A stretch of DNA of 64,000 nucleotides from Eubacterium sp. 1001713B170207_170306_E7 (lineage in GTDB: Bacteria > Bacillota > Clostridia > Eubacteriales > Eubacteriaceae). Made by a program: the position numbers and the translations under genes. Of the stretch, positions 20,636-33,529 are shown piece after piece. Below the pieces are notes generated by a model that saw nothing but the letters and a program-made list of their open reading frames with translations, had not been told where the DNA came from and ran no database searches. The DNA lies in NCBI RefSeq assembly GCF_015547515.1, contig NZ_JADMVE010000006.1:204609-268608 (forward strand), read 5' to 3'. Numbering within the stretch: position 1 is the first letter of the stretch; every line of letters starts with the position of its first letter.

Positions 20636-20667
20636 ATATCAAAGTCGTTTTGATTTTTCTAAAGGCA

Positions 20668-20718
20668 TGCTCAAAAGACTCAAAACCCAATTTTCAGAGG
20701 TTTTGAGTCTTTTGAGCA
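20668..20718. repeat. Intergenic palindrome, copy 1 (full)
   Basis: TGCTCAAAAGACTCAAAAC and its inverted copy, separated by about 13 nt. First of a family of seven full and two half copies, all in intergenic DNA of the backbone and none inside the integrated element. Confidence 0.85.
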
Positions 20719-20755
20719 GGGGGCAGGAAAATAAAAAATAATGGGCAGGGCATTC

Positions 20756-20784
20756 TTGAAAAATTAAAAATCAAGTGTTATAAT
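20756..20784 (+). promoter_or_regulatory. Promoter upstream of the DUF2798 gene
   Basis: TTGAAA (20756-20761), 17-bp spacer, TATAAT (20779-20784). Confidence 0.75.
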
Positions 20785-20790
20785 AAACCC

Positions 20791-20848
20791 AGATTAGCGA
20801 GTAGTGCACGTCACGTAAGTCCAGTTGACGCCACGGCTCGCTTTTTTT
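20791..20848 (+). ncRNA. Compact hairpin leader or small RNA ending in a terminator
   Basis: Transcription from the promoter should start about where a segmented hairpin begins. AGCGAG (20796-20801) pairs with CTCGCT (20837-20842), GTG with CAC, and CGTCA (20809-20813) with TGACG (20826-20830), around a 12-nt loop. Seven T follow. The product would be a 55-60 nt RNA, either a stand-alone small RNA or a transcription attenuator for the next gene. I cannot match it to a named riboswitch class. Confidence 0.55.
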
Positions 20849-20872
20849 ATTTTCAGAATAAGGAGTGATTTT

Positions 20873-21364
20873 ATGCCAAAAACAAAATTACAGGAGATTG
20901 TTTACGCGGTTTTAATGACCTTTTTCATGGTGCTGGCCATGGAATTTTATAATACCGGGCTGCGCATGGGGGGAATGACCAACGAGGGATTCTTTATGGC
21001 CTTTGAGGAAATGCGGATAATGGTGCCGGTTTGCTTTGTGATGGGCTATTTTTTCATGGACCGGATCGCCCCCAAAATCGCCTTTAAAATGGTAACGCCG
21101 GGTGAGGACAAGGAAATATTCTGCGTGATTGTCCGGGCCGCGGTAACGGTCTGTCTGATGTGCCCGGTGATGAGTTTCTGGGCAACCCTGATTTTTAAGC
21201 AGCCGGGTGTGCAGTTTTTGGCCGTCTGGCTGGAGACCATTGTCATCAACTTCCCCATGGCCCTCTGCTGGCAGGTTTTCTTCTGCGGGCCGCTGGTACG
21301 GTTTTTATTCCGGACGATTTTTAAGGGGCAGCTTGAAAAGCAGGCGGTGGAATTGCAGGAGTAG
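20873..21364 (+). CDS. DUF2798 family membrane protein
   Basis: A 163-residue protein with four hydrophobic segments arranged as two similar halves, as in DUF2798 proteins (LQEIVYAVLMTFFMVLAMEFYN in the first, VRAAVTVCLMCPVMSFWATL in the second). Its role is unknown; it is predicted to sit in the cytoplasmic membrane. AAGGAG is 8 bp before the ATG at 20873. Codons further upstream overlap the hairpin leader and are not coding. It is monocistronic and its expression is probably conditioned by the leader. Confidence 0.8.
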   Translation: MPKTKLQEIVYAVLMTFFMVLAMEFYNTGLRMGGMTNEGFFMAFEEMRIMVPVCFVMGYFFMDRIAPKIAFKMVTPGEDKEIFCVIVRAAVTVCLMCPVMSFWATLIFKQPGVQFLAVWLETIVINFPMALCWQVFFCGPLVRFLFRTIFKGQLEKQAVELQE

Positions 21365-24676: not shown

Positions 24677-24695
24677 TGCTCAAAAGACTCAAAAC
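24677..24695. repeat. Intergenic palindrome, left half only
   Basis: TGCTCAAAAGACTCAAAAC, the left arm of the palindrome family, without the inverted partner, 44 bp before typA. Probably a decayed copy. Confidence 0.75.
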
Positions 24696-33235: not shown

Positions 33236-33523
33236 TCAAAAAACCGCCTCTACGCGCATTTTTATAAATGACGTATAGAGACGGAAGATTTTATCTTACG
33301 TGGTACCACTCTAATTTCACAGCGTAACGCTGCCTCATTGGCAGATACGGACCGGCAGGGCCTTATATCCTCCTGGGGTAACGGTCAGGAACCGGCGCCG
33401 CCTACTCTCGTAGATTTCAGCTTGCCACTCCGAGGCCAGTTCAGACGCCTTTCCCAACTGCTTCGCATCAACCAGCAGCTTTCTGAATGTTCCGGGAATC
33501 CTACTACTCCTCATCAAGGTGTT
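33236..33523 (-). promoter_or_regulatory. Leucine T-box leader of leuA
   Basis: On the minus strand: stem I with GATGAGGAGTAGTA and the specifier region ending CTCGGAGTGGCAA, in which CTC (33432-33434) reads as Leu. The T-box AGAGTGGTACCACG lies at 33298-33312, followed by a terminator with arms CCGTCTCTA and TAGAGGCGG plus T-run (33236-33284). Uncharged tRNA-Leu should stabilise the antiterminator and allow leuA expression. Confidence 0.92.
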
Positions 33524-33529
33524 GTGATA

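Follow-up and report, generated by a model that had tools for sequence, protein, structure and literature searches.

What is the function of the short segmented hairpin that lies between the promoter and the start codon of a DUF2798 gene in the window, the 64,000-nucleotide stretch of Eubacterium DNA analysed here? An earlier note on this DNA had described a promoter, a segmented hairpin at 20796-20842, seven T and the DUF2798 gene, and we found each of these elements, together with a ribosome-binding site, in place. The promoter is of the σA type (TTGAAA-17-TATAAT with an extended TG; 20756-20784, plus strand), agrees with the consensus at 11 of 12 positions and was the joint best among 12 sites in 4 kb in a promoter scan. 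The position of its -10 box (20779-20784) predicts a transcription start at about 20791 and, thereby, an off-state RNA of about 55-57 nt. The hairpin and the T run (20842-20848) together constitute an intrinsic terminator (20796-20848, plus strand). Its predicted RNA fold has an energy of -19.2 kcal/mol, compared to -11.6±2.8 for shuffled sequences (z -2.7), and with a loop of more than 8 nt it escaped a simple terminator scan. Further downstream on the same strand are a ribosome-binding site recognised by inspection (AAGGAG, 20860-20865) and the gene for a membrane protein of 163 residues (20873-21364, ATG at 20873), which matches Pfam PF11391 (DUF2798) with 34.2 bits against a cut-off of 23.5. 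Between its promoter and its start codon the locus thus carries a stable hairpin with an adjoining T run, as is characteristic of attenuators that use intrinsic terminators.

The same region also contains a 47-bp palindrome (GCTCAAAAGACTCAAAAC, about 12 nt, reverse complement), of which about eight copies occur within 28 kb (window 20670-48509). Copies are located at 20670, 28231, 34113, 43715, 47823 and 48462, with further or degenerate ones at 24679 and 44839, and at ≤2 mismatches the palindrome is absent from the rest of the 4.27 Mb genome. One copy, also present in a same-genus relative, lies just upstream of the studied promoter, and miRNA matches from Rfam at 20665-20721 were dismissed as a reflection of this palindrome. 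A T-box leader (101.9 bits) is present on the minus strand of the window at 33274-33526.

We compared the upstream regions of DUF2798 genes from 80 homologous loci in other genomes, together with relatives found by whole-genome searches. These regions fall into a few recurrent leader types, and the leader in the window was assigned to type C, the members of which share CRUAAGUCCAGUU within the hairpin. The window region shares 87% identity with its counterpart in a same-genus genome, and the leader is kept in the same-genus genome G003 and in Eubacterium callanderi (L003, L072). In both, the DUF2798 orthologue is frameshifted, and at L003 and L072 the promoter is retained along with the leader. 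The hairpin region is also kept upstream of other DUF2798 genes, and the non-conservation that had been named beforehand as evidence against the proposal was not seen. A sequence model built from ten type C leaders (R2) was searched in 391 genomes of the class, and a structured model built from 39 leaders (R3) in 398 genomes of the phylum as well as in the genome that contains the window and in 40 genomes from the same family. Altogether, 60 distinct leaders were collected, all from Bacillota. This family of related leaders supports the idea of an attenuator of very small size in which a sequence element is conserved.

The conserved, aptamer-like core delimited by R3 covers only 35 nt (20794-20828, plus strand), and R3 scores the core in the window with 42.1 bits (E 2e-9), the window sequence being among the 39 used to build it. 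The pairing within the core was found by using its two constant strands as anchors and comparing the flanking bases: for P1, the 5 nt before the first strand (J1) with the 5 nt after the second (J2), and for P2, the start and the end of the segment between them. All parts lie on the plus strand. P1 is formed by UUAGC (20794-20798) and GUUGA (20824-20828), and P2 is the hairpin GUG-CACGU-CAC (20804-20814). The internal loop between them consists of GAGUA (J1, 20799-20803; GWGYR in the family) and GUAAGUCCA (J2, 20815-20823), the latter delimited by alignments A5 and A6 and by composition. The family fold can be summarised as P1 (ANC/GNU), a conserved internal loop (GWGYR/GUAARUCCA) and P2 (GY/RC). 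It should be noted that the search pattern fixed some core bases, so that their conservation is partly by construction: G1 and G3 of J1 occur in all 65 regex matches, but both positions were required by the pattern. In the R2-based alignment A6, G6, G8 and G11 are invariant too.

The pairs themselves covary. Of the 60 leaders, 59 maintain pair 2 of P1, by way of A-U, U-A, G-U, C-G and G-C, and the same number maintain pair 2 of P2 (C-G or U-A in 58 of 60), while pair 3 of P2 varies. When 41 leaders were compared with shuffled controls, pair 2 of P1 was standard in 40 (A-U 20, U-A 11, G-U 5, C-G 2, G-C 2) with 0 of 5000 shuffles as good, and pair 2 of P2 was also standard in 40, with 0 of 20000 shuffles as good for pairs 2 and 3 of P2 together; these counts should not be taken as probabilities, since the 39-60 leader sequences are phylogenetically related. 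Pairs 4 and 5 of P1 were not significantly better than shuffles in this set. For a MAFFT alignment of 39 leaders the covariation score was 0.451, compared to 0.196±0.025 after shuffling (0 of 500 as good), and 85% of the cells were paired, compared to 27-51% once one side was slid. Furthermore, L336 and L337 exchange the near-constant closing pairs C-G and A-U of P1 for U-A and G-C. A scan of viral contigs with the exact 14-mer CGTAAGTCCAGTTG gave chance matches only (120 occurrences, none with both helices). The strongest argument against a chance origin is the comparative one, namely the 87% identity within the genus and the family of 60 leaders.

These findings change the picture of the hairpin in two respects. 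Firstly, the three helices of the hairpin as drawn are not the conserved unit but those of the terminator, the stem of which varies among the leaders, and the covariation favours the competing P1/P2 fold instead. Secondly, the 12-nt loop that had been suggested as a sensor is a genuine conserved element, but its main part, GUAAGUCCA, forms the 3' side of an internal loop facing GAGUA and is not a hairpin-loop sensor. Judged by its sequence, the hairpin would make a good terminator, and it might merely lower basal expression of the gene, with the core being conserved for another cause, such as polymerase pausing. We consider this very unlikely, because neither an invariant GUAARUCC nor covarying pairs incompatible with the terminator would be required in a plain terminator.

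The terminator hairpin covers the whole conserved core from 20796 onward, and the two folds are mutually exclusive. In all 49 leaders that were folded, the core fold does not survive intact in the minimum-energy structure of core plus terminator, L240 alone retaining 4 core pairs. In the window, none of the 8 aptamer pairs persists in the structure predicted for the full leader, and the core fold has an energy of -0.7 kcal/mol versus -19.1 kcal/mol for the terminator. A core fold that is this weak in the absence of a ligand requires either kinetic trapping or a binding partner. Covariation thus maintains a fold that is thermodynamically disfavoured, which fits the behaviour of an antiterminator relying on such a partner. 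The hairpin and T run are accordingly accompanied by a conserved antiterminator fold. In addition, 51 of the 60 leaders have a -10 hexamer (5 or 6 of 6 matches) that ends 2-13 nt before P1, whereas 14 would be expected from shuffled upstream sequence. With the -10 box so near to P1, the aptamer is the first thing to be transcribed.

The searches were driven by the motif and not by genes, and downstream genes were scanned afterwards. The leader precedes DUF2798 genes in the window and at L270, L272 and L289; the genes at L291 and L294 resemble DUF2798 but fall below the Pfam cut-off. It also precedes MATE genes (e.g. L276, L280, L283, L288, L330, L333, L343), MFS genes of the EmrB/LmrB type (L273, L314) and other MFS genes (L336, L337), an MsbA-like ABC exporter gene (L267), genes for CarD-like proteins (L268, L313, L329, L334) and, once, a UvrA gene (L279). 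The signal is thus not specific for DUF2798. A second copy in the window's genome (C1:993503-993534) lies before a MATE gene and neighbours a DUF2798 paralogue that bears a leader of another type (type B, see below). L042 combines both types: its DUF2798 gene carries a type A leader, and downstream of this gene a type C leader precedes an MFS-like gene, which was named by eye. No recognisable downstream gene was found at the matches L275, L277, L318, L327 and L332. At L281, a c-di-GMP-I riboswitch (1802-1885) is located about 250 nt downstream of the type C leader. As would be expected of a riboswitch, the leader is a conserved structured RNA that precedes a number of unrelated gene families linked by a shared theme. 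Speaking against a switch for efflux genes, CarD and UvrA are not transporters, and for some members no downstream gene is annotated.

The same context bears on the suggestion that the element is a separate, trans-acting small RNA of about 57 nt. A short terminated transcript would indeed be expected in the off-state, but the motif recurs directly upstream of efflux-type open reading frames, in most loci on the same strand and with a ribosome-binding site, and it was not seen at a separate genomic position. We regard this suggestion as barely credible.

We consider it fairly probable that the leader is a cis-acting transcription attenuator with a minimal aptamer, in which a ligand-stabilised antiterminator serves as an ON-switch for efflux genes. 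The core, the covariation of P1 and P2, the terminator overlap and the recurrent efflux-gene context are established by comparison and computation; the leader would, in our interpretation, bind a small molecule directly and act by induction rather than repression. Transcription would begin a few bases before P1, and the nascent RNA would first be able to form P1, the internal loop and P2 (20794-20828). Binding of a ligand, probably a small toxic molecule that is exported by the downstream gene products, in the internal loop GAGUA/GUAAGUCCA would allow the P1/P2 fold to persist, thereby leaving the terminator strand unpaired, and the polymerase would read through into the DUF2798 gene. In the absence of the ligand, the longer hairpin at 20796-20842 would form and transcription would stop at 20842-20848.

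The main rival is that the partner of the core could be a protein and not a small molecule. The RAT antiterminators of the LicT/SacY family are short interrupted hairpins that exclude an overlapping terminator, and they control sugar-utilisation genes together with a linked PRD-type protein. The likeness extends to the size of about 35 nt, the asymmetric internal loop, the terminator overlap and the weak fold, so that an RNA-binding protein might stabilise P1/P2 here as well. However, neither sugar genes nor a PRD protein were seen: the targets observed are of the efflux type and not concerned with sugar uptake, they are diverse and spread across classes of Bacillota, the loci examined show no regulator gene linked to the leader, and no Rfam leader family matches. 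A RAT-like system thus appears unlikely, albeit worth bearing in mind.

The motif corresponds to no Rfam 15 family at the gathering threshold, and a relaxed threshold gave unrelated or chance matches only. In the open-access literature we found no description of DUF2798 or MATE/CarD leaders or of the core sequence, which older or paywalled motif lists could contain, and among the terminator-embedded aptamers described there the present leader does not appear. The closest functional analogue in the literature examined is the guanidine-IV riboswitch, which differs in size and architecture (PMC7736828, PMC9788692, PMC11611296, PMC12186494). This element (mepA/GGAM-1 motif) precedes MATE-type pumps in Firmicutes, and its terminator overlaps the sensing element, with read-through being proposed upon stabilisation of the aptamer (PMC7736828, PMC9788692, PMC11611296). 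The leader shares with it the MATE genes, the terminator overlap and the ON-switch logic (PMC7736828, PMC9788692). Yet guanidine-IV and its variant Gd4v are about 90-95 nt long and consist of two hairpins joined by a pseudoknot or kissing loop (PMC7736828, PMC9788692), whereas the present core is a single interrupted hairpin of 35 nt near +1, and upstream of P1 the promoter, its -10 box ending 2-13 nt away in 51 of the 60 leaders, takes up the space that a 5' hairpin would need. On this description guanidine-IV and Gd4v were set apart. In contrast to the present leaders, in which ANCG and CGUAA are conserved, GGAM-1 has no ACG trimer that is conserved (PMC7736828). Guanidine-IV is associated with sugE, PnuC, GNAT or transaminase genes, while the present leader precedes DUF2798, CarD, ABC, MFS and UvrA genes, with no sugE/SMR gene seen downstream. 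Rfam 15, which may or may not contain a guanidine-IV model, gave no guanidine match to the leaders. On the grounds of architecture, sequence and gene context, another guanidine riboswitch or a guanidine-IV variant is very improbable.

Two other systems are related in part. The HMP-PP (thiS motif) riboswitch is described as a terminator-embedded aptamer as well, with thiamin-related genes and an otherwise unrelated context (PMC6478431). The yjdF (azaaromatic) riboswitch candidate precedes a different gene of unknown function and is proposed to respond to broad, possibly toxic compounds (PMC4793209); the present leader has no such Rfam match. Attenuators of this terminator-overlapping, riboswitch-like kind are known, and it is the class that appears to be new.

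At least four further unrecognised leader types precede DUF2798 genes elsewhere, and types A, B, D and E have no Rfam 15 match. Type A consists of AUAGAAAUAAGUC..GGCGUAGUCUAU and a terminator, and is found upstream of DUF2798 at L041, L043-L051, L053, L054, L056, L070 and L030. Type B, AUUGGAAACG-n-ACA-hairpin-ACGAACAACAC, is near-invariant in 34 aligned examples and occurs upstream of DUF2798 at L058, L062, L075, L086, L031 and other loci; its model gave 12-13 strong matches in 391 genomes, and those examined precede DUF2798-type genes. RNAalifold proposed no pairs for the type B alignment, and the structure was therefore set by hand. Type D is GGUAGUGAG..ACGAAAGUUAU (L081, L088, L113, L250, L025), type E is ACGACACAUGU-hairpin-GUAAAUCUGAUUACGG (L038, L253-L255, L262, L264, L265), and type F leaders are present at L029, L037 and L261. 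Types D, E and F are conserved, carry terminators and lie before DUF2798-like genes. The shared strings UAAGUC and GUAARUC are suggestive of types A and E being permuted or extended versions of the type C core.

The DUF2798 protein itself, of which we found passing mention only in the literature, gave a confident AlphaFold2 model (47 aligned homologues, pLDDT 92.5), an all-helical bundle of long helices. This model had no convincing fold match in the PDB: the best Foldseek E-value was 0.57, and the best VIA-align 2 Z-score was 5.2, with ECF S-components at Z 4-5, within the noise for helical bundles. The presumed exporter role of DUF2798 is consequently drawn from the shared leader only.

The occurrence of the leader before four transporter families, CarD and UvrA suggests that the ligand is a toxic compound. 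Since CarD and UvrA genes join the transporters, it is perhaps a planar or transcription-blocking xenobiotic, and one may speculate that it is harmful to transcription or DNA. Guanidine is sensed by four riboswitch classes, which offers a parallel for several leader types sensing one compound. Tentatively, we propose that the leader represents a new riboswitch class, among the smallest and located at the 5' end, that senses a toxic compound, and that types A, B, D and E sense the same compound before DUF2798 as its dedicated exporter. Identifying the ligand should name the substrate of several orphan efflux systems in gut and soil Bacillota. The shared sensor ties DUF2798 to MATE, MFS and ABC exporters and gives a handle on this family. 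Moreover, a 35-nt aptamer that starts near +1 would be a compact and well-defined model for co-transcriptional switching, and would also suit simple genetic sensors in anaerobes.
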